From NCBI GenBank assembly GCA_035310145.1, contig DATGEL010000055.1, positions 1 to 45,098 of the forward strand: 45,098 nt of DNA, read 5' to 3'. Made by a program: the position numbers and the translations under genes. The DNA is from Dehalococcoidia bacterium (lineage in GTDB: Bacteria; Chloroflexota; Dehalococcoidia; CAUJGQ01). Of the stretch, positions 1,213-42,837 are shown piece after piece (within the stretch, counting starts at the first letter, position 1; every line of letters begins with the position of its first letter). Under the pieces are notes generated by a model that did no database searches, was not told where the DNA came from, and saw only the letters and a list, made by a program, of their open reading frames with translations.

Positions 1213-2283
1213 TCAGCGGCCCTGCATGCGGTTGTAGATGATGCCGGCGTAGGCGATCGGGTTGAGCAGCGAGCCGGTCGGCGTGAAGTCGAGCGTCGAG
1301 ACCTGCGCCACGGTGAGGCCGCGACGGAGGATCTCAGTGTAGCTGTCGAACTGCACGCCGTGCGAGTTGGTGAGCAGGTAGTAGGAGGCAGCGTCTTCGT
1401 CGCCCAACCCCCTGGCGCCCTCATTGACGACGTTGCCGGCGGTGAGCGTGGTGCCGCTGTAGTCCGGGTTGAGCGCGTCGGCGGCGGCGGCCATAAAGCC
1501 CTGGTGCGCCAGCGCGGGCGTCGGATAGGTTTGCAGCACGTCGACAACCAGCAGCCGCGGGCTGCGGTCATTTTGATCGATCCAGTACCCCACGTAGCCG
1601 ACGGAGCCACCGCGCAGCGAGAGACGCAGATTGAGCTGACTGTTGCCGCTGGTGTAGCCGGGCAGATCGCTCTGCTGCAGCGCCACGCTCTGCAGGCCGG
1701 TGATCGTGGTCAGGTCGGGGCCGCTTGAAGCAGAGGCCGGCGCGGGCGTGGGTGCGGCCGCGGCGGCGGGCGTCGCGGCCGGCGTGGCTGTGACGCAGGC
1801 GCCGGGCGTGAGCGTGACGTTGCCTGCGCCCATCACCCAGGCGCCCTGGCCCACGCCGAGCGAGGTCGCCTCGACGTAGCCGCCGCTGGGTGTGTAGGCC
1901 AGCACGCTGTCGGCGCCGCTGACCGAGACGATGCAATCCGAGGTGGGGTTACCGACCATCGCCCAGGCGCCGGGTGTCAGCGTCACGCTGTACCCATTGC
2001 GGCTGCTGGGCGAGCTGACGCTGCCGCCGCCGGCAAAGAAGGCCCAGTAGCCCCAGCCGGCCTTGAGCGGACTGCCGGCGGGGAAGCTCTGGTAGGTCGT
2101 GTCGCCCGGCTGCAGCGAATAGATCAGCCCGCTGGCGCCGTTCAGCGTCGCGCCGTCGGCGCCGGCCACCAGGTTCCAGCCGGCAGGCAGCGTGGCGGCG
2201 CGGGCGGGCGCGGCGGGGTAGAAGCCGAGCAGCGCGAGGCCAGTAGCGGCGCTCACCGCGAGCAGCAGGATCCGTCTCTTCAT
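1213..2283 (-). CDS. Secreted two-domain protein of unknown function
   Basis: The 356-aa protein begins MKRRILLLAVSAATGLALLG, a clear Sec signal peptide; the ATG follows GGAGC. After cleavage, residues about 30-165 form a repeat-like all-beta region (LPAGWNLVAG, AGWGYWAFF, TPGAWAMVGNP, GVGQGAWVMG). Such 'GWNLV/GYWV' modules recur in surface proteins and may be carbohydrate or cell-wall binding. An Ala/Pro/Thr linker (about 166-190) leads to a C-terminal domain (about 195-356) that starts 'QQSDLPGYT' and carries no catalytic motif I recognise. It resembles the sensor-like domains that follow linkers in secreted Chloroflexota and actinobacterial proteins. The gene stands alone, divergent from the GMC oxidoreductase. 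Function unknown. Confidence 0.75.
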   Translation of the reverse strand: MKRRILLLAVSAATGLALLGFYPAAPARAATLPAGWNLVAGADGATLNGASGLIYSLQPGDTTYQSFPAGSPLKAGWGYWAFFAGGGSVSSPSSRNGYSVTLTPGAWAMVGNPTSDCIVSVSGADSVLAYTPSGGYVEATSLGVGQGAWVMGAGNVTLTPGACVTATPAATPAAAAAPTPAPASASSGPDLTTITGLQSVALQQSDLPGYTSGNSQLNLRLSLRGGSVGYVGYWIDQNDRSPRLLVVDVLQTYPTPALAHQGFMAAAADALNPDYSGTTLTAGNVVNEGARGLGDEDAASYYLLTNSHGVQFDSYTEILRRGLTVAQVSTLDFTPTGSLLNPIAYAGIIYNRMQGR

Positions 2284-2418
2284 GCGGGGCGCTCCTTCTC
2301 GGTGCCCGGCACCGAAACGTTTGCTGCAAATCTGTATCGCTGATTGTTGTCGAACTGTCAAGTATCTCAGTGGGAATGTTTGCGGCCGCCTATCCCTGGT
2401 TCCGCAAGCGAAACCTGT

Positions 2419-2439
2419 CCCTTTCCCACGAGGAAAGGG
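2419..2439. repeat. Intergenic C/T-rich hairpin, copy 1
   Basis: Perfect 8-bp inverted repeat CCCTTTCC / GGAAAGGG with a 5-nt loop. A near-identical hairpin follows 35 bp later, and related ones occur at 4169, 42857 and 44037, all outside genes. Confidence 0.65.
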
Positions 2440-2473
2440 TTATCAGAGGGCTACCGGACCTTCTCGAACCGCG

Positions 2474-2494
2474 CCCTTCCCGCGTCGGGAAGGG
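2474..2494. repeat. Intergenic C/T-rich hairpin, copy 2
   Basis: Perfect 8-bp inverted repeat CCCTTCCC / GGGAAGGG with a 5-nt loop, the same geometry as the copy at 2419-2439. Flanks are also similar (each is followed by a short AT-containing stretch). Confidence 0.65.
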
Positions 2495-2602
2495 ACATCC
2501 GAGCGCCTGCAGGAGGGAGGGATAGGCGGGCTTGCGCTACGCCGGCAGGCCCGCCACTCTGTCTTCGGCCGTGGCGCGATCGCGCCGGCGCTGGGAGGCA
2601 CC

Positions 2603-4129
2603 ATGCAGTACGACCAGGTCATCATCGGCGCCGGCTCCGCGGGGGCCGTGCTGGCGGCCCGCCTCTCGGAGAACCCGGACTGCGCCGTGCTGTTGCTGGA
2701 AGCCGGGCCGGACTACCCCGACCTGGAGCAACTGCCGCAAGACCTGACGGACGGCCTCACCGCCTCCACCGAGGCGCACGACTGGCACTGGCAGGGCAAC
2801 GCCGTGCCGGGCCGCGCCGTGCCCTACCCGCGCGGCAAAGTCGTGGGCGGCTCCTCCGCCGTCAACGGTGTCGTCGCCATCCGCGGCACGCCCGAGGACT
2901 ACGATGGCTGGGCCGCCGCCGGCAACGACGAGTGGGCGTGGGAGCGCTGCCTGCCCTATTTCCGCCGGCTGGAGGACGACCGCGACCACGGCGGCGATTA
3001 CCACGGCCAGGGCGGGCCGATCCCGATCGTGCGCTGGCGCCACGACGAGCTGACGCCGCTGCAACGCGCCTTCTTCGACGCCTGCCGCGCGGCGGGCTAC
3101 CCGGAATCGACCGACCACAACGTGCCGGACGCCACGGGCGTCGGCTCCTGGGCGATGAACCGCACGGGCACGCTGCGCGTCTCTACCGCGATCGGCTATC
3201 TGCAACCGGCGCGGCCGCGGCTGAACCTGACGATCCGGGCGCACTGCCACGTCAACCGCGTGCTGTTCGAGGGGCAGCGCGCCGTGGGCGTGGAGGTCGA
3301 GCACGGCGGCAGCGTGCAGACGGTCTACGGGCGCGAGATCGTGCTGGCGGCGGGGGCGCTGCACAGCCCGCCGATCCTGCTGCGCTCCGGCGTGGGGCCG
3401 CGGCGGCAGCTTGAAGCGTTCGGCATTCCCCTCGTGCGCGATCTGCCCGGTGTGGGCGAAAACCTGAAAGACCACCCTTCCGTCACGCTGCTGGCGACGC
3501 CGCGCGCCGGCGTCTCGGCCGCGGCCGACCCGCTGCAGCAGATCGGCCTGCGCTACACCGCCGCCGGCAGCGACCGGGCGAACGACATGCAGATGTACAT
3601 CTGGAGCTACCACGCCGAGCGCTCGCCGCAGTTGCGCTTCGCCGTGGCCGGCATCGACGCGCTGTTCGCCCTCTGCCCGACCTTGCAGCGGCCGCGATCG
3701 CTGGGGCATCTGCGGCTGGCGAGCGCCGATCCGCGGACGCAGCCGCTGATTGAGCTGAACCTGCTCGACGACGAGGAGGACATGGCGCGCATGCTGGACG
3801 GCGTGCGCCGCGCCTGGGCGCTGCTCACGTCTGACCCGATCGCGGCGCTGACCGAGCGGATCCTGCGTCCCGACGCCGCCACCGTTGCGGACGACGAGCG
3901 GCTGCGCGCCTACCTGCGGGAGAACGTCAGCCACCTGGTCCACCCCGTCGGCACCTGCAAGATGGGCGCCGCGGAAGACCCGCTGGCGGTGGTCGATCAG
4001 CAAGGCCGCGTGCACGGGCTGGAAGGGCTGCGCGTGGTAGACGCCTCGATCATGCCCGATCTGCCGCGGGCCAACACCAACCTGACCACGATCATGATCG
4101 GCGAACGCGTGGCGGAGTGGCTGCGGTAA
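2603..4129 (+). CDS. GMC-family FAD-dependent oxidoreductase (choline dehydrogenase-like)
   Basis: The 508-aa protein is of normal family length. The ATG at 2603 follows GGGAGGCACC; the open frame upstream has no such site. An FAD-binding GxGxxG (GAGSAG, residues 9-14) sits at the N-terminus. GMC signature 1 is PRGKVVGGSSAVNG (about 76-89) and signature 2 is GALHSPPILLRSGVGP (about 252-267). The C-terminus has HLVHPVGTCKMG with the catalytic His (about 447) and PRANTNLTT with the partner Asn (about 491). The family oxidises alcohols to aldehydes with FAD. Choline, other polyols and aromatic alcohols are all possible, and nothing nearby (no betB or transporter) fixes the substrate. No signal peptide; cytoplasmic. 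Confidence 0.93.
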   Translation: MQYDQVIIGAGSAGAVLAARLSENPDCAVLLLEAGPDYPDLEQLPQDLTDGLTASTEAHDWHWQGNAVPGRAVPYPRGKVVGGSSAVNGVVAIRGTPEDYDGWAAAGNDEWAWERCLPYFRRLEDDRDHGGDYHGQGGPIPIVRWRHDELTPLQRAFFDACRAAGYPESTDHNVPDATGVGSWAMNRTGTLRVSTAIGYLQPARPRLNLTIRAHCHVNRVLFEGQRAVGVEVEHGGSVQTVYGREIVLAAGALHSPPILLRSGVGPRRQLEAFGIPLVRDLPGVGENLKDHPSVTLLATPRAGVSAAADPLQQIGLRYTAAGSDRANDMQMYIWSYHAERSPQLRFAVAGIDALFALCPTLQRPRSLGHLRLASADPRTQPLIELNLLDDEEDMARMLDGVRRAWALLTSDPIAALTERILRPDAATVADDERLRAYLRENVSHLVHPVGTCKMGAAEDPLAVVDQQGRVHGLEGLRVVDASIMPDLPRANTNLTTIMIGERVAEWLR

Positions 4130-6732: not shown

Positions 6733-8283
6733 ATGAGACGCCTGTTCCTCGTCTGTGCGGCGCTCGCGCTCGTCTTCATGGCGCTGCCGCTGATCGCCGC
6801 CGACTCCCCTGCACGGGCGCAAACCCAGCCCACGGCGACTCCTCCACCTCCCACCACACCCGATCAGGAAGCGCTGCGGCAGCAGCTAGGCGGCTTCCTC
6901 AGCGGCCTGCAAGATGTCATCAATACCATGAAAGCGAACCCCGCCACGGCGCAGGCGCTGGTGGCCACGGGCAGCGACCCGAGCGGCCAGCTCACCGCCG
7001 CGCAGCAGCAGGTGCCGCAGCTCACCTCCACCGACCTGGCGGCGCTGCAGACGGCGGTTTCACAGAACCCAAACTGGCAGCAGATCCCAGGAGAGCTGAA
7101 GGCCGCCGTCAGCGTCGGCGGCCACGCCGGCGCGCTGCCGGCGCTGGGCGTGCCTGGGCTGCGCACGCTCGCCACGCGCGCGCCGGCGCCCGCCTCCGGG
7201 CCCTCTGTGCAGCGGTCGCGGTTCCTCGCCTTCGTGCGCAGCTACAACGGTGCGCCCGCGCCGGCCAACCGCGGGAGCGCGCTCGATGCCTTCAACCCGT
7301 TCCACCCCAACGCCGCGCCGACCACGCTGGACGACACGCAGGGCACCTTCGTCGACAGCTGCGAGAGTAGCACCGGCGGCACGGCGCCCAACTTCAAGGC
7401 CAGCGAGCTGTTCAACGACGCGTTCATCGCCAACCAGGTGCAGAGCGCGATCCAGGCGATCATGCTGGCCACACCGGGCGTGTTCGCCGCCTTCATCGGG
7501 GTGGACGTGCCCACCGGCGTGAAGATCGCCGAGGCCGCGGCCTGGGGCGTCGCCAACGTCGCCTTCCTCGTGCTCTCGCAGCTCGACGCGATCGCGCTCG
7601 ACTGCGCCCAGAATTACTTCCAGGGGATTCAGACCGCCACCTTCCCCACCGATCCGAACAACAGCAGCAGTGTCGTGGCCGGTTCGTCGGAACAGAGCGT
7701 GCTGGACCTGATCAACAAGGCCACCGGCACGCAGCAACAGATCACCAACGTGCAGAAGACGACCGACACGATCGAGAACTGCCAGATCCAGGGCAAGACC
7801 AGCGGTGCGCCGCAGGCGGGACCGAACTGCGCGCCGGGCTTGCTCGCGCAGGCTGACACGCTGAACAGCACACTGACCACGGACAACAGCCAGGTCGACG
7901 AGATCCAGGACGACACGCAGGTCACGCAGACCTACGTCAACGCGCTGGACAACACCGAAAACACGATCCTGACCAAGGCGAAGCAGGCGATCACCAACCT
8001 GAACGCCTTCCAGACGCTCCAGGTGCAGATGGAGATCGAGGCGAACCTGAGCCTGCACGGCAACAACCCGATCGGGCTGTTCGAGACGCCGAAGGCCCAG
8101 GGCGGCTACCTGGAGATCGTGCACGACATCGTCAAGACCGAGATCCAGAACGAGATCGCCACGGGCAAGGGCGTGTTCAACGCGCAGTCCTATCTCGCGC
8201 AGGGCGAGGCGGCGTTCGCCGCGGGCCAGTTCAAGACCGCGTACAGCGACTACGCCAAGGCCTATCAAGATGCCACGAAGTAA
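6733..8283 (+). CDS. Secreted helical protein of unknown family, tandem paralog 1
   Basis: The ATG follows GGGAG. The 516-aa protein has a Sec signal (MRRLFLVCAALALVFMALPL, cut near ADSPARA). A Pro/Thr linker follows, then a mostly helical body. Features shared with the next gene are LSGLQDVINTMKANP (about 56-70), a Cys-Glu-Ser near 210, a hydrophobic helical segment around 240-285 ending near a Cys (LDCAQNYF), FQTLQVQMEIEANL (about 425-440), GGYLEIVHDIV, and a C-terminal GQFKTAYSDYAKAYQDA that looks like half a TPR. An extra segment, ENCQIQGKTSGAPQAGPNCAPG, is absent from paralog 2. No enzyme motif is visible. The gene is 49 bp from its paralog, so one transcript is likely. Possibly a cell-surface scaffold; function unknown. 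Confidence 0.8.
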   Translation: MRRLFLVCAALALVFMALPLIAADSPARAQTQPTATPPPPTTPDQEALRQQLGGFLSGLQDVINTMKANPATAQALVATGSDPSGQLTAAQQQVPQLTSTDLAALQTAVSQNPNWQQIPGELKAAVSVGGHAGALPALGVPGLRTLATRAPAPASGPSVQRSRFLAFVRSYNGAPAPANRGSALDAFNPFHPNAAPTTLDDTQGTFVDSCESSTGGTAPNFKASELFNDAFIANQVQSAIQAIMLATPGVFAAFIGVDVPTGVKIAEAAAWGVANVAFLVLSQLDAIALDCAQNYFQGIQTATFPTDPNNSSSVVAGSSEQSVLDLINKATGTQQQITNVQKTTDTIENCQIQGKTSGAPQAGPNCAPGLLAQADTLNSTLTTDNSQVDEIQDDTQVTQTYVNALDNTENTILTKAKQAITNLNAFQTLQVQMEIEANLSLHGNNPIGLFETPKAQGGYLEIVHDIVKTEIQNEIATGKGVFNAQSYLAQGEAAFAAGQFKTAYSDYAKAYQDATK

Positions 8284-8332
8284 TACGCGACGCTTCGACG
8301 AGCAGGTCACCCGCGTGATCAGGAGAACAGCC

Positions 8333-9850
8333 ATGAGACGCTGGTTGGTTATCGTCGCGGCCGTCGCGCTGATCGGTGCCGCGCTGCCGCTGATCGCGGC
8401 CGATTCGCCCGCGGCGCAGGGCGCCGGTCCGAACGCCACGCCGCAGGCCGGGCGTGGCAACGGCAACAACGCCTCACCGCCGACGAACGGCGACGACGAA
8501 AACTTCCGCAAAGACCTGAAGACCTACTTCGCCGGCATGCAGGACGTCCTCAACGCCCTGCAACAGAACCCGAACACGAGCCACCACCTGGGCAAGAACA
8601 CGGTGCATGACCCCGGCTCGGCGATTAAAGTCGCGCAGCAGCACGTCGACACGCTCAATGCGAACGAGCTGCGCGAGTTGGAGAAGCGCTACGGCACGAA
8701 CCCGGCCTGGCGCGACCAGCCGGCCAAGCTGAAGGCGTTGATCGACAGCGTCGGACCGGGCAACGGCGCCCGACCCGGCGGCGGGCGGCGCAGCAGCGCG
8801 CTCCCGGGCAATGCGGGAGGCGGCGGCAACACCCTGGCCAGCGCCATCCCCGACTACTCGATGCCCGCCTCGCTGACCGCGCTGTTTGGCTCGTTGAGCG
8901 GCACGCCGCTGCGGGCCGATGCGCTGGCGGTGGAAGACGCGCTGGCGGTGACGCCGGCTGCCGGCTTCCCCGAGCCGTACCTGGCCCCGGACTGCAACAG
9001 CCCCGGCAATGCGAAGACCCTGTTCTACGCCTACTGGGCTGCGGCCGACGCGGCTGCCATCGCCAATGCCGTCGCCTCCGGCGCGCCGGACGGCGCCGAC
9101 TTCGCCGCGGTGACGATCATTGCCGGCGCGGCCTTCGGCGTGGCGAACGGTATCGCGATCGAGCTGCAGAAGGAGCTGACCTTCGCCACCGACTGCATCA
9201 CCTTCGCCTTCAACCAGCAGTTGGTCAGCACCTTCCCGCAGGACCCGAACAACCCGGGCAGCTTCATTCCGGCGTCCTCGCAGATCAGCGTGAACGCGCT
9301 CGCCGCGCTCTCCGGCCAGATTCAGACGATCCTCAACAACGTGCAGACCGACGTGAACCTGATCACCCAGGACCTGGCGAGCCTGATCATCAAGCTCGGC
9401 ACCGCGCAGGGCACGGCGACGCAGATCCACAACACGGCCACCACGCTGCAGGGGCAGACCGACACGCTGCAGAGCACCGTCGGCCAGCCCAACGACAACA
9501 CCGACAACACCTCCAACGGCCTGGCGAACGACATCAACGGGCACATGGACACGTTGCTCGGCAACATCTCCGCCTTCCAGGCGCTGAGCATCCAGATGGA
9601 GATCGAGCGCAACATGGCCGTCTCCTCGCAGCCGTCGCTGGCGATCTTCGCCCTGCCGGCAGCGAAGGGCGGCTATCTGGAAACGGCGCGCGCGATCGTG
9701 GCCGGCACCATCGCCAACCTCCAGGCGGCCGGCCAGGGTGTCGGCAACGCGCAGCAGTTCCTGGCGCAGGGCAACGCGGCAGCCGCCGGCGGCCAGTTCG
9801 AGACCGCGTACGAGGACTACGCCATGGCGTATCAGACGGCGGTGCAGTAG
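8333..9850 (+). CDS. Secreted helical protein of unknown family, tandem paralog 2
   Basis: ATG at 8333 with AGGAGA upstream; 505 aa. The signal peptide ends in the same ALPLIAADSPA as paralog 1. Matching blocks in the same order are YFAGMQDVLNALQQNP, a Cys-Asn-Ser near 222, TFATDCITFAFN, FQALSIQMEIERNM, KGGYLETARAIVAGTI and GQFETAYEDYAMAYQTA. Between them sequence identity is low, so the duplication is old and the conserved blocks are probably functional. A Gly/Asn-rich linker (about 38-55) replaces the Pro/Thr linker. A region of regularly spaced Thr/Gln/Asn (TATQIHNTATTLQGQTDTLQ) suggests coiled coil. Two conserved Cys may form a disulfide outside the cell. Function unknown. Confidence 0.8.
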   Translation: MRRWLVIVAAVALIGAALPLIAADSPAAQGAGPNATPQAGRGNGNNASPPTNGDDENFRKDLKTYFAGMQDVLNALQQNPNTSHHLGKNTVHDPGSAIKVAQQHVDTLNANELRELEKRYGTNPAWRDQPAKLKALIDSVGPGNGARPGGGRRSSALPGNAGGGGNTLASAIPDYSMPASLTALFGSLSGTPLRADALAVEDALAVTPAAGFPEPYLAPDCNSPGNAKTLFYAYWAAADAAAIANAVASGAPDGADFAAVTIIAGAAFGVANGIAIELQKELTFATDCITFAFNQQLVSTFPQDPNNPGSFIPASSQISVNALAALSGQIQTILNNVQTDVNLITQDLASLIIKLGTAQGTATQIHNTATTLQGQTDTLQSTVGQPNDNTDNTSNGLANDINGHMDTLLGNISAFQALSIQMEIERNMAVSSQPSLAIFALPAAKGGYLETARAIVAGTIANLQAAGQGVGNAQQFLAQGNAAAAGGQFETAYEDYAMAYQTAVQ

Positions 9851-9884
9851 GCGCCGTGCCGGCCGCTTTTCGGTCATGGTCGGC

Positions 9885-9918
9885 GGGCGGCGGGAGGGTA
9901 CTACACATCCCGCCGCCC
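9885..9918 (+). terminator. Hairpin between paralog 2 and the IPT protein gene
   Basis: Perfect 11-bp stem GGGCGGCGGGA / TCCCGCCGCCC with a 12-nt loop and no U-tract. It could attenuate read-through into the large downstream gene rather than stop it. Confidence 0.4.
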
Positions 9919-9943
9919 CCGAACCGGCAAAAGCGAGGATCGC

Positions 9944-12900
9944 GTGAGACACGAAAGAGAACGCACCCGCGGGGGGCGCGCCTGGCACGGCCGCTCCCGC
10001 TTCCTGCTGCTCGGCGCCCTGGCGCTCGCCGCGCTCACGCTGGCGCGCCCCGGCGGCCAGGCCGCCGCGGCCTGCAGCGTGAGCGTCAGCGGCATCAGCC
10101 CGGCGATCTCCTTTCAACCGGATACACCCGCGGCGACGATTACGGGCAGCTGCTTCCACAACAACGGCGACATTACCAGCGTGACCTTCGGCAGCACGGC
10201 CGCGGCGTTCAGCGTCACGGACGACGGCCACCTCGCCGTCACGGTGCCAGCGGGCACGACGGCGGGCGCGGTCACGGTCACGGCGTCGAACGGCTCCTCC
10301 TCGGGGACGACGAGCTACACCTACGCGCCGCTGCCGAGCGCCACGGGCATCACCCCGGCGCTGGTCTTCAACGACGTGGGCACGGCGGTGACGGTCAGCG
10401 GCTCCGGCTTCGCGCCGAGCACCGGCACGACCGCCCTCTCGATCAACGGCGGCGCCGTCTCCACGGGCACGATCACCAATACGTCGATCGCGGCGACGGC
10501 GCCGGCGGCGAACCTCACCGGCAACGTGCCGGTCAGCGCCGCCGTCACGCTCACGGGCGACACGCGGTCGGCGGACGTGCCCGGCGGCCTGACCTACGTC
10601 GCACATCCGGCCGTCAGCGGCGTGGTGCCGTCGAGCGGCCCGGAGAAGGGCGGCACCAACGTCCAGATCAGCGGCAGCGGCCTGAACCCGCCCGCCGGCG
10701 CGACCACCACGGTGAACTTCGGCACGCACGCGGCCGCGAGCGTCACCCCCGTCTCGGACACCGAGATCGACGCCGTCTCGCCGTCTGTGCCCGCGGCTAC
10801 CGGCACGGTGGACGTGACCGTCACGGTCACGCTGCCGGGCGGCGCCTCCGAGACGAGCGCGACGAGCACGGCGGACCAGTTCACCTTCGTGCCGGCGCCG
10901 ATCGTGACCAGCGTCACGCCGAGCACGGCGCCGCCCGGCTCGAACACGGATGTGACGATCGGCGGCCAGAACTTCCAGGACGGCGCGATCGTGCTGTTCG
11001 GCCCCTCCGATGGCTCAAACGGCTCGCCGAGCAACCCCTTCCCCAACGACCTTTCGGCCACGGCGGTCGATGTCCTGGGCGGCACGAGCATCCTGGCGAT
11101 CACGCCGGCCGGCCCGCCGGGCGCCACGAACGTTGTCGTGATCAATCCCGACGGCCAGTTCGGCGTGCTCAAGTCCGGCGACGCCAACCACTTCGCCTTC
11201 ACCGGATCGCCGCCGACGCTGGCCGCGACGCCGATCAGCCCGACCAGCGGCGGCACGCTGGGCGGCACAAGCGTGACGATCACGGGCGCCGGCTTCCAGT
11301 CGGGCGCAACTGTGACCTTCATCTTCCCCAGCCCGACGAGCGACCCCGGCGCCCGCGGCACGGCCACGAGCGTGAACGGTGCCGGCACGGCGATCACGAC
11401 CACGACGCCGATCCACACGGCCGGCGCGGTGAACGTCGTCGTGACCAACCCCGACGGCGGCAGCGTCACGGCCGCGAGCGGCTTCACCTTCACCAACTCG
11501 GCGGCGCCGACGATCGCCTCGCCGCTCAGCCCGGCCACGGGCAGCTCGACCGGCGGCACACAGGTGACGATCACCGGCACGGGCTTCGCGCCCGGCGCCG
11601 CGGTGACCTTCGGCGGCACGCAGGCGGCCTTCGCGACCGTCTCCGGCTCGACGAAGATCATCGTCAACACGCCCGCCCATGCGGCCGGCGCGGCCGACGT
11701 CTTCGTGACCAACCCGGACGGGCAGAACTCGAACACGCTGAGCGGCGCCTTCACCTACACCGCCGGCCCGGCGCCCACGCTGACCGGCTTCGCCGGCGGC
11801 AGCGCCACCAGCGGTCCGACCACGGGCGGCACACCGGTGCAGCTCAGCGGCAGCGGCTTCGTCGCCGGCGCGCATGTGACCTTCGGCGGCACGGCCGGCA
11901 GCAGTGCCAGCGTCAACGGCACCGGCACGCTGATCACCGTGACCACGCCGCCCCACGCGGCCGGTGCGGTCGACGTGATCGTGGTCAACCCGGACGGCCA
12001 GAGCTCAGGCACGCTGAGCGGTGGCTTTACCTACACGGCGCTGGCCGCGATCTCGCTCACGAAGCTCGACGTGACCACGGGCAGCACGCTGGGCAACACC
12101 GCGGTGAAGCTGACCGGCGCCGGCTTCGCGCCGGGCGCCAGCGTGGTGTTCGGCAGCACCGTCGCACCGGCGGCCTCGACTTCGGTGCCGAGCAGCACGG
12201 AGATCGACACGCTCACGCCGGCCGGTGTCTACGGCCTGGTGAGCGTCACCGTGATCAACCCGGACGACACGAGCGGGAGCCCCGACCGCGCCACGCTCGC
12301 CAACGCCTTCAACTTCACGCCAGCGCCGGCGCCGATGATCATGAGCATCAACCCGACGAGCGGCGCGAAGGGCACGGTGATCACGATCACCGGCACGGGC
12401 TTCGCCTTCGACAACCCGGCGAAGCTGGCCGACGGCACCGCCGATCCGTATGCCGGGGCGAACTCGACCGGCAACGCCTTCGTGACGATCGGCGGCGTGG
12501 CGCTGCAGCCGCTGCCGCCGGTAAGCCCGGCGATCGTCTCACCGCCGATCATCCAGAGCGCCACCACGATCAAGGGCGTCGTGCCGTCGCTGCCGGGAGG
12601 CCCGGCGGACATCACGATTACGAACCCCGACCACCAGGGCGTGATCCTGAAGGGCGCCGCCGATGCCAACGGTCCCGGCTTCTTCTACCCGACGGACACT
12701 ACGCCGCCGGCCACCACGGCCACGGCGTCAGCGCCGCCCGGCTACAGCTTCGGCACCTGGACCAACAAGAACGTGATCGTCGCGCTCAACGCCACGGACA
12801 ACCCCGGCGGCTCGGGCGTCAAGCAGATTACGATCAGCGCCGCGCCGGCCGGCGGCGGGCCGGGACAAACCATCCCGACGTCGACCACGCCGGTCAGCAG

Positions 12901-14188
12901 CACCACGGTGAACATCACCGTCGATGGCAAGACGAACCTGAACTTCTTCGCCACCGATAACGCCGGCAACGTCGAGGACAAGACGCAGCCGGGTAACACG
13001 GTGGCGATCTGGCTGGACAAGACGCCGCCGGTGATCGCGACGAGCGCGACGATTCCGAACGGCAGCGGCACCCAGCCGTACAACTTCGGGCAACCGACCA
13101 ACCAGGACGTGACCGTCACGTTCAGCTGCACCGACGGCGGCTCGGGCGTGAACACGCTGAGCTTCAGCACGGCCTCGTCGACCACGACGAGCGGCACGAA
13201 CCCGCTGGCGGTGACGGTGAACAGCCCCGGCAGCAACCAGTCGGTGACGGCCACCTGCACGGACGTGGCCGGGAACAGCGCCAGCTCGACCTTCAGCGGC
13301 ATCAACATCAACAAGAGCGCGCCGGTGATCACGGCGTCGGCCACGGCCGGCGGCCAGCCGTACACGCCGGGCACCTGGACCGACCAGGCGGTGACGGTGA
13401 CGTTCAGCTGTACGCCGATCGCCGGCGGCACGCAGATCGCCTTCGTCACGCAGCCGATCCTGATCAACACGGAGGTGCATAACGACCAGGTGAGCGGCAA
13501 CTGCACGGACGCCGCCGGCAACGGCGCGACGATCACGTTCCCGCCCGACCCGGCGAACGGCATCGACATCGACATGACGCTGCCCAGGGCCTCGGCCTCG
13601 GCAACGACGACGGACAACAACGGCCACACCGTGCCCTACACCGCCGGCGCCTGGACCAACCACGACGTGGTCGTGACGTTCAGCTGCCAGGACCAGGGCG
13701 CGGTGCAGTCGGGCGTGCCGCCGGTGGTCACCGACGAGCAGGCCTTCCTCAGCCCGCCGGTGACGGTCAGCGCGCAGGGCACGACGAGCTCGGTGACGGG
13801 CAACTGCAGCGACGCCGCCGGCAACGAGGCGAACCCGCCGGCCTTCTTCGGGCCGATCCTGATCGACAAGGCGCCGCCCGTGTGCAGCGTGGTCGTGAAT
13901 CCGAACCCGATCGGACCGGCCAACGGCAAGCTGGTGAGCGTCGTGGCCACGGTCACAGTCACCGATCAGTCGGGCCTCTCCGGGCCGAACGGCTTCCAGC
14001 TCGTCTCCGTGGCGAGCAACAACCCGGCCACGGCCGGCAGCGACATCGTCGGCTTCGCGCCGGGCTCGGCGGATACGACGGGCCAGCTGCGGGCCACGAA
14101 GGGCCGGAGCTACACGCTGACCTATAAGCCGTTCGACGTGGCCGGCAACGTCGGCGCCACCTGCAGCGTGCAGGTGACGGTCAAATGA
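9944..14188 (+). CDS. Large secreted IPT/TIG- and Ig-repeat surface protein
   Basis: GTG start preceded by GCGAGGA; 1414 aa. The signal peptide (RSRFLLLGALALAALTLA) is cut near GQAAAA. Residues about 44-910 hold roughly nine IPT/TIG-like beta-sandwich repeats, each with a 'P...G...GGT.V.I.G.GF..GA.V.FG' pattern and several with 'TNPDG'. From about 920 to the end there are four or five repeats of about 95 residues that start '[TK]xPPV' and contain 'PYxxGxWTNxxVxVTFSC' and 'GNCxDAAGN', with paired Cys. These resemble bacterial Ig-like/HYR modules. There is no C-terminal anchor or sorting signal. Such stacks form extended adhesive stalks. It follows the two secreted paralogs by 93 bp and may be their partner. 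Confidence 0.88.
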   Translation: MRHERERTRGGRAWHGRSRFLLLGALALAALTLARPGGQAAAACSVSVSGISPAISFQPDTPAATITGSCFHNNGDITSVTFGSTAAAFSVTDDGHLAVTVPAGTTAGAVTVTASNGSSSGTTSYTYAPLPSATGITPALVFNDVGTAVTVSGSGFAPSTGTTALSINGGAVSTGTITNTSIAATAPAANLTGNVPVSAAVTLTGDTRSADVPGGLTYVAHPAVSGVVPSSGPEKGGTNVQISGSGLNPPAGATTTVNFGTHAAASVTPVSDTEIDAVSPSVPAATGTVDVTVTVTLPGGASETSATSTADQFTFVPAPIVTSVTPSTAPPGSNTDVTIGGQNFQDGAIVLFGPSDGSNGSPSNPFPNDLSATAVDVLGGTSILAITPAGPPGATNVVVINPDGQFGVLKSGDANHFAFTGSPPTLAATPISPTSGGTLGGTSVTITGAGFQSGATVTFIFPSPTSDPGARGTATSVNGAGTAITTTTPIHTAGAVNVVVTNPDGGSVTAASGFTFTNSAAPTIASPLSPATGSSTGGTQVTITGTGFAPGAAVTFGGTQAAFATVSGSTKIIVNTPAHAAGAADVFVTNPDGQNSNTLSGAFTYTAGPAPTLTGFAGGSATSGPTTGGTPVQLSGSGFVAGAHVTFGGTAGSSASVNGTGTLITVTTPPHAAGAVDVIVVNPDGQSSGTLSGGFTYTALAAISLTKLDVTTGSTLGNTAVKLTGAGFAPGASVVFGSTVAPAASTSVPSSTEIDTLTPAGVYGLVSVTVINPDDTSGSPDRATLANAFNFTPAPAPMIMSINPTSGAKGTVITITGTGFAFDNPAKLADGTADPYAGANSTGNAFVTIGGVALQPLPPVSPAIVSPPIIQSATTIKGVVPSLPGGPADITITNPDHQGVILKGAADANGPGFFYPTDTTPPATTATASAPPGYSFGTWTNKNVIVALNATDNPGGSGVKQITISAAPAGGGPGQTIPTSTTPVSSTTVNITVDGKTNLNFFATDNAGNVEDKTQPGNTVAIWLDKTPPVIATSATIPNGSGTQPYNFGQPTNQDVTVTFSCTDGGSGVNTLSFSTASSTTTSGTNPLAVTVNSPGSNQSVTATCTDVAGNSASSTFSGININKSAPVITASATAGGQPYTPGTWTDQAVTVTFSCTPIAGGTQIAFVTQPILINTEVHNDQVSGNCTDAAGNGATITFPPDPANGIDIDMTLPRASASATTTDNNGHTVPYTAGAWTNHDVVVTFSCQDQGAVQSGVPPVVTDEQAFLSPPVTVSAQGTTSSVTGNCSDAAGNEANPPAFFGPILIDKAPPVCSVVVNPNPIGPANGKLVSVVATVTVTDQSGLSGPNGFQLVSVASNNPATAGSDIVGFAPGSADTTGQLRATKGRSYTLTYKPFDVAGNVGATCSVQVTVK

Positions 14189-14242
14189 GCGGCGGCTGAG
14201 CCGCCTCGCGTTGGCCAGCGCGGACGGCACGGCAGCAGGCGA

Positions 14243-14273
14243 GGGCGCAGCCGGACCCTCCGGCTGCGCCCTT
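14243..14273 (+). terminator. Intrinsic terminator after the IPT protein gene
   Basis: Perfect 13-bp stem (14243-14255 with 14259-14271) with a CCC loop followed by TT, 55 bp past the stop codon. It separates this unit from the riboswitch-controlled gene. Confidence 0.7.
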
Positions 14274-14338
14274 GCCGCCGGCAGCGGCAGGAGGCCGCGG
14301 CAACGTTACTGAAGCGTTACCACGGCTGTGCAAAGACA

Positions 14339-14646: not shown

Positions 14647-15216
14647 GTGACACCCAGCAGCACCTTCATCCGCACGTCGCGCAAGGCGCTCGCCATGGCG
14701 CTCGGCGCCACCCTGCTCGCCGCCGCGCTGCCCGCTGGCCTGCGCAGCACGGCGCCCGTCCACGCGGACGGCGCCACGGTCAACTGCGACGTGCCGGACA
14801 GCCAGCTCCAGATCGACCCCGAGGAGCAGGCGCTGCTCGATATGCTGAACGCCTACCGGGCGCAGTACGGGCTCGGTCCGCTGCAGTTCGATCCGCCGCT
14901 GCAGCGCGCGGCGGCATGGAAGGCCATGGATATGGCCAACAACCGCTACACCGCGCACGACGACAGCTTCCGCACCTGGGACCAGCGCTTTCGCGACTGC
15001 GGCTACACGGCGCCCTACGCCTTTATGGCGGAAAACATCTCCGGCGGCTTCGCCACGGCGGTGGAGACGCTGAACCAGTGGGAACACTCGCCGGTGCACA
15101 ACGCGAACCTGCTGGACCCGAACATGAACTACGTCGGCCTGGTGCGCTACCAGCCGACCAACCCCAACGCCCCGTACGGCTGGTACTGGGTGCTGGAGCT
15201 GGGCAGCGACGCCTGA
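14647..15216 (+). CDS. Secreted CAP/SCP-domain protein
   Basis: GTG start with GGAGAAAGGA upstream; 189 aa. The signal peptide runs to about residue 40 (ALAMALGATLLAAALPAG, then VHA). The CAP domain (about 58-187) begins with EEQALLDMLNAYRAQYGLGPLQ. It carries the cavity residues His104 (YTAHDD), Glu129 (AENISGG), Glu146-His147 and His151, and closes with NYVGLV and GWYWVLELG. CAP proteins are secreted and bind or cleave varied partners; biochemical role here unknown. It is monocistronic, with a cyclic-di-GMP riboswitch in front and a terminator behind. This links its production to surface/biofilm signalling. Confidence 0.9.
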   Translation: MTPSSTFIRTSRKALAMALGATLLAAALPAGLRSTAPVHADGATVNCDVPDSQLQIDPEEQALLDMLNAYRAQYGLGPLQFDPPLQRAAAWKAMDMANNRYTAHDDSFRTWDQRFRDCGYTAPYAFMAENISGGFATAVETLNQWEHSPVHNANLLDPNMNYVGLVRYQPTNPNAPYGWYWVLELGSDA

Positions 15217-20816: not shown

Positions 20817-22169
20817 CTACAGCGACCTGAGGTACTCCACCAGGTCGTTCATCTCCTGATCGCTCAGCCCCAGGTGGAAGAAGTCGTTGTAGTGCTGCAC
20901 GACTTCGCGCAGGGTGGCGAAGCGCCCGTCGTGGTAGAAGCCGCCCTGCTGGTGCGTCCAGAGCCCTTTGAGGGGCGTGGTGCGGTAGTGCCCGTCCGGT
21001 GAGCGGCTGGCCTGGAAGTCATCGATGCCGATCTCGGCGGGCGTGTGCATATTCCAGCCGGGCTCGGTGAACAACGGCGGCACGTGACACTGGGCGCAGT
21101 TCGCCTTGTTCATGAAGAGGTCTTCGCCCCGTTTGGCCGCCACCGGATCGAAGCTTCCCCTGGGTGGCGCCGGCGCGGCGATCGCCAGCTGGTAGAACTG
21201 CAGGGCGGCGAGCTTCGCGGTGACCTGGTCCGGCTTGTTGCGCGTGTTGCCGAAACCGGCCCTGGCGGCAACCGGGAACTTCTGCGGATCGTTGAGGCGC
21301 GGATCGTAGAAGTTGCCCTGGCCGTGCATCTCCAAATTGGCGACGAAGGCGTTCCAGTAGGGCACGGAGCCCCAGCCGGTGTAGGTATGCAGGTTGACGC
21401 CGGCGAGGCCGAAGGCGGGCGGAATCAACACCGCCGCCGTCTTGCCGTCGGGGCGGAAGCCCTTGCCGTCGAGGAAGAGCTCGGCGTCGAACTTGCCCGG
21501 GCCCCAGGCGTTCAGCACCGTGTGCACCGTGGCCTCGTCCACACCAAGCAGCGTGGTGACGGTGGACAGGTCGGGCGCCAGGCCGATGATCGCGCCGACG
21601 TTCAGATCGCGGTTCGGCCAGCCGTCCAGCCGGTGGCCGATGCCCGGCGCGAAGGCGTTATCGACCGTGGAGTGGCAGAGGGCGCACTGGATGCCCAGCG
21701 ACTTGAGCTGGCCCGAGTCATCGAAGAAGCCGGTCAGCCCGACGACGGCGTTGAGCTTCAGCAGCGTCAGCGTCGTGGCCGGGTCGTCCAGGTTGACCTG
21801 ACCTGCCTGGATCGCCTTGACCACATTCGGCGGCAGCGCGTCCTGGTCGACTTTCAGACCGACGGAGAGCGCCGTCTTCGGACTGACGCCGGGGCCGACG
21901 CCTCCCAGGTTGGCGCCCTCGATCGCCTTGTGCAGCTTCAGCGCCTCGCCGAAGAACGCCTCCGAGCCGAAGGTGTCGAAGCGGAACGTCTGCCGTCCCT
22001 CTTCGATCATCCGCTCCGCGTTTTCGTCGACGCCGTGGTCGGCCGGTGCCGGGCGGTGGCCCTGGCCGTGCACGAACGGCTGGAAGCGCAGAAACGCGGT
22101 CAACGCCAGCGCGCCGGCGGCCGCGATCAGCACCCCCTTCATCGGGATAGTCCTTCTCTTGCGCGTCAC
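20817..22169 (-). CDS. Di-haem cytochrome c peroxidase family protein
   Basis: GTG at 22169 follows AAGGAGG with good spacing; an in-frame ATG at 22142 also has GAAGGA upstream. The 450-aa protein has an N-terminal anchor (VLIAAAGALALTAFL, about 13-27). Two haem-c sites are present: Cys162-x-x-Cys165-His166 (CALCH) and Cys358-x-x-Cys361-His362 (CAQCH), the bacterial cytochrome c peroxidase/MauG pattern. The C-terminus has TPLKGLWTHQQGGFYHDGRFATLREVV, as in this family. It either reduces H2O2 with electrons from small cytochromes or oxidises another partner as MauG does; these cannot be separated here. It heads the cytochrome-maturation group and is its likely client. Confidence 0.9.
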   Translation of the reverse strand: MTRKRRTIPMKGVLIAAAGALALTAFLRFQPFVHGQGHRPAPADHGVDENAERMIEEGRQTFRFDTFGSEAFFGEALKLHKAIEGANLGGVGPGVSPKTALSVGLKVDQDALPPNVVKAIQAGQVNLDDPATTLTLLKLNAVVGLTGFFDDSGQLKSLGIQCALCHSTVDNAFAPGIGHRLDGWPNRDLNVGAIIGLAPDLSTVTTLLGVDEATVHTVLNAWGPGKFDAELFLDGKGFRPDGKTAAVLIPPAFGLAGVNLHTYTGWGSVPYWNAFVANLEMHGQGNFYDPRLNDPQKFPVAARAGFGNTRNKPDQVTAKLAALQFYQLAIAAPAPPRGSFDPVAAKRGEDLFMNKANCAQCHVPPLFTEPGWNMHTPAEIGIDDFQASRSPDGHYRTTPLKGLWTHQQGGFYHDGRFATLREVVQHYNDFFHLGLSDQEMNDLVEYLRSL

Positions 22170-40971: not shown

Positions 40972-42837
40972 ATGACCACGGGCCAGACCGAGCGGGCCTT
41001 CAACGGCAAGATCCTCAACGTCAACCTCAGCACGGGCGAGATCAAGGCGGAGCACCTGCCCGATGAGATGTACCGCAAGTATCTGGGCGGCTACGGCCTC
41101 GGCGCCCGCATGCTGCTGGACCGCGTGCCCAGGGGCGCCGATCCGCTCGGCCCGGAGAACATGCTCGGCATCTTCCCCGGCCTGATGACCGGCACGCCGC
41201 TCTTCGGCCAGCGCTATCAGGCCGTGTGCAAGTCGCCGCTCACCGGCGGCTGGGGCGACGCCAACTGCGGCGGCAACACGGGGCCGTATCTCAAGCATGC
41301 CGGCTGGGACGGGGTCATGTTCTTCGGCGCGTCCGAGAAGCCGGTCTACCTGCTGATCAAGGACGACGAGGTCTCGATCGAGGACGCCTCGGATCTCTGG
41401 GGCACGGACGCGATCGAGAGCGAGAAGCTGCTGATGGAGCGGCACGGCAAGAAGTCGAGCGTGGCCGATATCGGCCCGGCGGGCGAGACGCTGTCGCTGA
41501 TCTCCGGCATCTGCAACGACCACGGCCGACTGGCGGCACGCAGCGGCGTGGGCGCGGTGATGGGCTCGAAGAAGCTCAAGGCGATCGTGATCGTGCCCTC
41601 GCGCAACATCATGGTGCAGAACAAAGAGACGCTGGCCGAGGTGAAGCAGGGGCTGCAGGACTTCGTCAAGCCCACGGCCGACTTCTTCCGGACGTACGGC
41701 ACCACCGGCATCACCAGCCGCTCGGCGCACAGCGGCGACTCGCCGGTGAAGAACTGGGGCGGCGTCGGCATCGTCGACTTCCCCAACGTCGAGACGATCA
41801 CCGGCGACGTGGTCAACGCCACGATGGAGAAGCACTACGCCTGCTGGCACTGCCCGCTCGCCTGTGGCGCCGAGTCCAAAGAGTCGGAGAACGCCGAGTA
41901 CCCGTATCCGCGCCACACGCACCGGCCCGAGTACGAGACGATGGCCACCTTCGGGACGATGAACCTGAACAACAACCTCGACTCGCTGACCTACGCCAAC
42001 CACCTCTGCAACGCCTACGGCTTCGACTCGATCTCGGCCGGCGCCACGGTCTCCTTCGCGATCGAGTGCTACGAGAACGGCATTCTCACCAAAGAGGACA
42101 CCGACGGCCTGGAGCTGCACTGGGGCGACGACAAGGCGATCATCAAGCTGCTGGAGATGATGGGCACGCGCCAGGGCATCGGCGCCGTGCTGGCGGACGG
42201 CGTCAAGGTCGCCTCCGAGAAGATCGGCCGCGGCTCGGAGAAGTTCGCCATGCATGTGGCCGGGCAGGAGCTGCCGATGCACGACCCGAAGCTCCAGCCC
42301 GAGTACCACACGACCTACAAGCTCGACCCGACGCCGGCGCGGCACACGCAGTACGAGGGCAACCGCCGCTTCGGCCTGATCCCCGCGGCGCAGCGCGACC
42401 GCACGGTGTCCGAGGGCCGCGGCCCGCACCACAAGGGCGCCTCGGAGTACATGCACGTCGTCAACGCCGCGGGCCACTGCCAGTTCGTGATGATGGCCGC
42501 GAACACGGCCAACATCCCGCAGTGGATCAACATGACCACCGGCTTCGACATGACGCGCGAGGAGCTGCTGGAGGTGGGCGAGCGCATCGCCAACATGCGC
42601 ATGGCCTTTGAGGTACGCGAGGGCGGCAACCCGCGCAAGCGCCAGGTGCCGGAGCGCATGTCCGGCGCGGTCTACAGCGAAGGGCCGCACAAGGACTTCG
42701 GCCTCGACACCGAGACGCTGGAGAAGGAGTACCTGCAGGCCTGCGACTGGGACACGGAGACGTGCAAGCCCAGCGCCGCCAAGCTGCAGTCGCTCGGCCT
42801 GGCCGACGTCGTGCCCATGGTGCACGGCGGGGCGTAG
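40972..42837 (+). CDS. aor: Aldehyde ferredoxin oxidoreductase (tungsten-pterin)
   Basis: ATG with GAAGGGAGA upstream; 621 aa, full family length. N-terminal GKILNVNLSTGEIK and YLGGYGLGARML match AOR. The [4Fe-4S] ligands are Cys-x2-Cys-x3-Cys at about 291-298 (CWHCPLAC) and Cys near 503 (GHCQF), the same spacing as in the archaeal enzyme. Pterin/tungsten-binding segments include LCNAYGFDSISAG. It oxidises aldehydes to acids with ferredoxin, or runs in reverse, and needs W or Mo with bispyranopterin. No ferredoxin, MoaD-like or tungstate transport gene is adjacent. AOR in such genomes may act in amino-acid catabolism or acid reduction. Oxygen-sensitive family. Confidence 0.94.
   Translation: MTTGQTERAFNGKILNVNLSTGEIKAEHLPDEMYRKYLGGYGLGARMLLDRVPRGADPLGPENMLGIFPGLMTGTPLFGQRYQAVCKSPLTGGWGDANCGGNTGPYLKHAGWDGVMFFGASEKPVYLLIKDDEVSIEDASDLWGTDAIESEKLLMERHGKKSSVADIGPAGETLSLISGICNDHGRLAARSGVGAVMGSKKLKAIVIVPSRNIMVQNKETLAEVKQGLQDFVKPTADFFRTYGTTGITSRSAHSGDSPVKNWGGVGIVDFPNVETITGDVVNATMEKHYACWHCPLACGAESKESENAEYPYPRHTHRPEYETMATFGTMNLNNNLDSLTYANHLCNAYGFDSISAGATVSFAIECYENGILTKEDTDGLELHWGDDKAIIKLLEMMGTRQGIGAVLADGVKVASEKIGRGSEKFAMHVAGQELPMHDPKLQPEYHTTYKLDPTPARHTQYEGNRRFGLIPAAQRDRTVSEGRGPHHKGASEYMHVVNAAGHCQFVMMAANTANIPQWINMTTGFDMTREELLEVGERIANMRMAFEVREGGNPRKRQVPERMSGAVYSEGPHKDFGLDTETLEKEYLQACDWDTETCKPSAAKLQSLGLADVVPMVHGGA

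Follow-up and report, generated by a model that had tools for sequence, protein, structure and literature searches.

The question raised by this locus is whether two adjacent genes for secreted paralogs and the giant gene that follows them together encode a surface structure, as had been proposed in a first-pass annotation. The window, namely the whole stretch of 45,098 nucleotides analysed here from a contig of a Dehalococcoidia bacterium, carries the three open reading frames (ORFs) on the plus strand at the places given in that annotation:

6733-8283, plus strand: W1 (paralog 1), 516 aa, ATG start, an apparently exported, all-helical protein
8333-9850, plus strand: W2 (paralog 2), 505 aa, ATG start, with the architecture of W1
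9944-14188, plus strand: giant repeat protein (IPT gene), 1414 aa, GTG start

The third-position G+C content of these ORFs (0.89-0.95) fits real genes of the host genome. W1 and W2 are separated by 49 bases, and no sigma-70 promoter-like site was found in the region.

W1 and W2 are beyond doubt true paralogs, aligning end to end with 34% identity over 546 columns (E-value 6e-57) and with a local score of 586, where shuffled sequences (n=200) average 52 and reach at most 78. Identity is unevenly distributed, being about 0.55-0.6 at both ends and 0.15-0.25 around residues 145-240, which bears out the earlier description of conserved blocks amid drifted sequence. The blocks QDV(I/L)NxxxxNP, FQxLxxQMEIExN and GQFxTAYxDYAxAYQ are common to both proteins, with the one correction that the leading leucine assigned to the first block is methionine in W2, and the two cysteines said to be shared are C210 and C291 in W1 numbering. 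The statement that the pair belongs to no recognised family also stands, with no match to either protein in Pfam, NCBIfam, PHROGs or PDB sequences. Both paralogs are apparently exported, as had been suggested, each possessing a signal peptide as read by eye; neither has a terminal anchor. An 11-residue stretch, ALPLIAADSPA, is identical at the signal-peptide ends of W1 (6780-6815) and W2 (8380-8415), despite several synonymous differences in the underlying DNA and the drift of much of the protein.

The full-length family is rare and patchy. In the 5.3-Mb genome of the window the paralogs occur once, as the W1/W2 pair, and they are absent from the only other genome of the same family. When 400 genomes of the phylum were searched with a profile, one further tandem pair emerged, in genome G506, and the class of G506 adds G765 (three copies), G852 (two) and G817 (two), giving 11 full-length sequences from five genomes. 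These four genomes belong to one order in another class of the same phylum, in which four of seven genomes are positive. Among 392 other genomes of the window's own class there were four weak matches, of which only an N-terminal one in G233 is real. No full-length carrier other than the window was seen in that class, a distribution that suggests transfer or numerous losses. Matches in G576 and G635 were rejected as chance, being signal-peptide stretches of sugar-binding ABC-type proteins, as was one in G897 that falls at the beginning of an ORF for an exported protein within a transporter operon, and weak matches in G464, G434, G306, G207, G157 and G581 were not accepted as relatives. Neither a single paralog nor the alignment of the pair, used as query against GTDB genome contigs, gave a confirmed relative, and none was found in viral contigs, plasmids or phages.

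All five genomes with the full-length family carry it in tandem (two or three copies). In the tree W1 joins W2 and the two G817 copies join each other (support 100/100 and 100/98), so that either the tandem sets originated on more than one occasion or their copies were homogenised in the distant past. With about 1.1-1.9 changes per site between them, the copies of a set are old and have been kept apart, a divergence that would fit distinct or hetero-oligomeric roles.

The N-terminal domain has a wider spread than the tandem family. Single-copy proteins in G233, of the window's class, and in G416, from elsewhere in the phylum, share a homologous N-terminal domain (shuffle z 8-9) but differ from the paralogs in their C-terminal part and in having no giant repeat gene seen alongside. 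A profile built from these two type II proteins alone finds both window paralogs, with E-values of 1e-9 (W1) and 5e-9, from which the wider distribution follows. They probably also have the Cys-flanked helical segment in common with the paralogs. The C-terminal part of the type II proteins (L013:3588-4784 and L014:7175-8494) carries an LDTTxExxxxHxQ...PGGR motif and matches no known family.

W1 consists of a signal peptide, an N-terminal domain, a Cys-bounded apolar segment, a helical/coiled-coil region and a C-terminal TPR-like module, with the following parts located in the two genes:

6853-7122, plus strand: W1 N-terminal domain, aa 41-130, common to the type II proteins of G233 and G416
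7360-7605, plus strand: W1 inter-Cys segment (C210-C291), from alignments, with an apolar stretch at aa 238-261 by hydropathy
7912-8280, plus strand: W1 C-terminal module, aa 394-516, a long helix and a three-helix bundle with a TPR-like hairpin
8993-9196, plus strand: W2 segment between its two conserved cysteines, from the alignment
9509-9847, plus strand: W2 C-terminal module, 46% identical to that of W1

The central segment is moderately apolar in most family members (19-residue hydropathy 1.6-2.1). Together with the apparent export, the all-helical make-up and the two or three tandem paralogs, this would be in keeping with multi-component alpha-helical membrane-active proteins in which a central apolar hairpin inserts into membranes. 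Such a role is highly unlikely, as no Pfam model of these families was matched, the segment makes a weak candidate for a membrane helix, and it is the C-terminal module rather than the hairpin that is best conserved in the alignment of the 11 sequences. In all five genomes the tandem sets carry the same C-terminal signature, consisting in order of IExNL, LFxLP, GxLExVRDxV and V-NA...GxxKxAYxxYxxAY (more loosely, IExN...LFxLP...GxLE...V.NA...GxxKxAYxxYxxAY).

The AlphaFold model of full-length W1, made with two sequences in the alignment, is all-helical and of low confidence (pLDDT 37), and fold searches were for this reason limited to the C-terminal module. Modelled alone on the two window sequences (pLDDT 76, pTM 0.67), the module forms a 47-residue helix followed by three helices at pLDDT of about 85-95, the last two of which make a TPR-like hairpin. 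Its fold neighbours are the DUF4398 protein PA2901 (4fm3; Z 8.1, 59 residues, 1.0 A, 20% identity) and DUF357 (AF1782, 2oo2; Z 6.9), both with scores in the range below about 13 where, for helical bundles, Z may reflect a common arrangement. No Foldseek match at an E-value of 0.001 was found for the module in PDB or viral models, and the DUF4398 and DUF357 models gave no significant sequence match to the family. Sub-threshold PDB sequence matches of the family profile at the module include a designed TPR protein (E-value 0.14). Among the models listed for the family at E-values up to 5 there was no TPR profile, only ANAPC3 (E-value 0.088, in one member), while by a simple count 5-7 of the seven TPR consensus positions are present at the C-terminus in the 11 members. 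The module may resemble DUF4398, DUF357 and TPR proteins in shape, with three helices of which the last two form the hairpin, but differs from these in that a single hairpin, and no repeat array, stands at the end of an exported protein of some 500 aa. The long predicted helices and repeated duplication could also belong to structural subunits of a filament or sheath, in line with the polymer interface that had been suggested earlier; this is quite unlikely, given that no pilin, sheath or S-layer family was matched and that nothing in the data points to self-polymerisation.

The third gene encodes the IPT/Ig-repeat protein that the first-pass annotation described. Pfam and NCBIfam scans identified nine TIG/IPT domains (E-value 2.3e-57) followed by OmpL47-type Ig-like repeats towards the C-terminus. 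TIG is treated as a stalk domain (PMC9210967), and DUF11 repeats, found in the related loci below, form the stalks of fibrillar adhesins (PMC12617251); since both are described stalk domains, the 1414-aa protein is a giant of a known kind. In its large size and tandem stalk domains it agrees with fibrillar-adhesin-like proteins, and the setting resembles fibrillar-adhesin loci in that a giant protein is built of Ig-like repeats in tandem, as is the hallmark of stalks (PMC9210967, PMC12617251). It differs from these in that no recognised adhesive domain was found in the protein by the Pfam and NCBIfam scans, and among recognisable anchor types its C-terminus has neither an LPxTG-type motif nor an apolar 19-mer. 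No description was found of a helical paralog family adjacent to fibrillar-adhesin genes, and the family is undescribed in the libraries searched. A search of the literature for TIG-domain proteins in Chloroflexota found no papers.

The surroundings of the IPT gene include two hairpins and a further gene:

9878-9925, no strand assigned: strong stem-loop, 18-nt arms 83% complementary, fold z -3.0
14238-14276, no strand assigned: near-perfect hairpin, 18-nt arms, 94%, 50 bases past the IPT gene
14704-15216, plus strand: CAP/SCP-domain protein, start uncertain with the ORF open from 14371, Pfam CAP E-value 1e-14

The first stem-loop, which has no T run, lies within the 93 bases that separate W2 from the IPT gene and is a possible terminator or attenuator, while the second hairpin likely marks a transcription end. 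With a strong hairpin between them, the pair and the IPT gene may not be co-transcribed, and the stem-loops before and just after the latter caution against assuming one operon. The CAP gene (domain at 14836-15195) is the next gene on the same strand, and only four CAP genes are present in the window genome.

A giant exported Ig-like-repeat gene adjoins the tandem set in all five genomes with the full-length family. It is of the TIG type in the window, where it lies downstream on the same strand; in the other order it is divergent, being of the DUF11 type in G506 (2454 aa shown) and G765 and of the Big_3_5 plus DUF11 type in G852 (1438 aa) and G817 (627 aa), each divergently upstream of the set. 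Downstream of the set, G506 and G765 also have an FG-GAP/Thr-Pro-rich giant followed by a CAP gene, with an exonuclease gene intervening in this stretch of G765 and with the CAP match of G506 just under the Pfam cut-off in one scan and above it in another. The order of tandem set, giant repeat protein and CAP gene is consequently common to the window, G506 and G765, a match that rests on two sister genomes and one outsider, the intervening giant being of the TIG type in the window and of the FG-GAP type in the two sisters. As four of the genomes share one order, the neighbourhood amounts to two independent lineages and not five; chance adjacency to such a giant is roughly 1% per independent lineage, as a post hoc estimate.

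What is not supported is the IPT protein as the specific partner of the pair. No TIG domain was found in G506, G765, G852 or G817, whose giants are DUF11 or Big_3_5, so that the IPT gene is no fixed partner, and of the six TIG ORFs in the window genome about five others stand at loci without paralogs. The occurrence of the paralogs widely without the IPT gene had been named in advance as evidence against the proposal; the paralogs are indeed found without it, though in a family that is rare and not widespread, and a giant Ig-like stalk adjoins every set. The part of the original reading that holds is an undescribed, apparently exported, tandem family with a giant Ig-like neighbour.

Several giants of the other order end in similar short tails, RILLPIAAK in L012 (G506:C59), RIHLPIALEGG in L026 (G765:C101), HQLYLPFARR in L027 (G852:C50) and HRLFLRLVVR in L028 (G817:C159), which may represent a lineage-specific C-terminal sorting signal; the window IPT protein has no such tail. 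Directly downstream of the pair in G852 (L027:7231-8892) lies a gene for a 553-aa protein in which a Peptidase_S74 (endosialidase-chaperone) domain is combined with a coiled coil. The S74 domain is typical of trimeric fibre proteins.

The change of partner type between genomes, with TIG absent outside the window, can also be read as a sign that the paralogs are independent secreted proteins, for example binding a ligand or matrix, which lie near surface-repeat genes through clustering in variable islands. The hairpin separating the pair from the IPT gene, the several giant repeat genes on the G852 contig, which has the look of an island, and the unrelated genes around the N-terminal-domain relatives in G233 and G416 are all consistent with this. 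Such an independent role is a substantial if somewhat doubtful possibility, since, scarce as such genes are in each genome (about five DUF11 ORFs in G506 among the matches listed), a neighbour of the same kind stands beside the set in all five, and two classes share the gene order that includes a CAP gene.

In the safest terms, W1 and W2 represent an undescribed, apparently exported, helical and tandemly duplicated family with a TPR-like end, whose genes are associated in the genome with those of giant Ig-like surface-type proteins. Because it is found beside a giant Ig-like gene wherever it was seen, the family is probably part of a surface machinery, and we tentatively favour, at a little under even confidence, mostly alpha-helical, exported accessory or adaptor subunits of a cell-surface assembly. 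From the established features, namely the family, its outline architecture, its tandem recurrence and its neighbourhood, we infer that the paralogs would act outside the membrane, where their long helices, probably coiled-coil, may pair copies with themselves or with each other. The conserved C-terminal face would then dock a shared partner through the TPR-like end, that partner most likely being part of a surface apparatus which includes the giant Ig-like stalks (TIG in the window, DUF11 or Big_3_5 elsewhere) and the CAP protein.

A more specific form of this reading is unlikely, namely a surface assembly of a kind not seen before, in which the duplicated coiled-coil proteins would use their TPR-like end as exchangeable adaptors and so attach to cells giant Ig-like stalks of different families that have no recognisable anchor of their own. 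The adaptor idea is the part worth testing. A paralog family that stands beside giants in two classes is a concrete candidate for holding Ig-like giants without a recognisable anchor on cells. Were the link coincidental, there would still be a protein family, undescribed so far and clearly marked by its C-terminal signature.

Elsewhere in the window, a cytochrome c-domain gene is present at 20817-22169 and an aldehyde:ferredoxin oxidoreductase gene at 40972-42837 (AFOR_N E-value 5e-72, AFOR_C E-value 1.5e-99). The ORF at 2282-4129 has the appearance of a GMC-type oxidoreductase gene; its frame stays open at the N-terminal end for about 100 further codons that look non-coding, and the true start is therefore probably near 2600.
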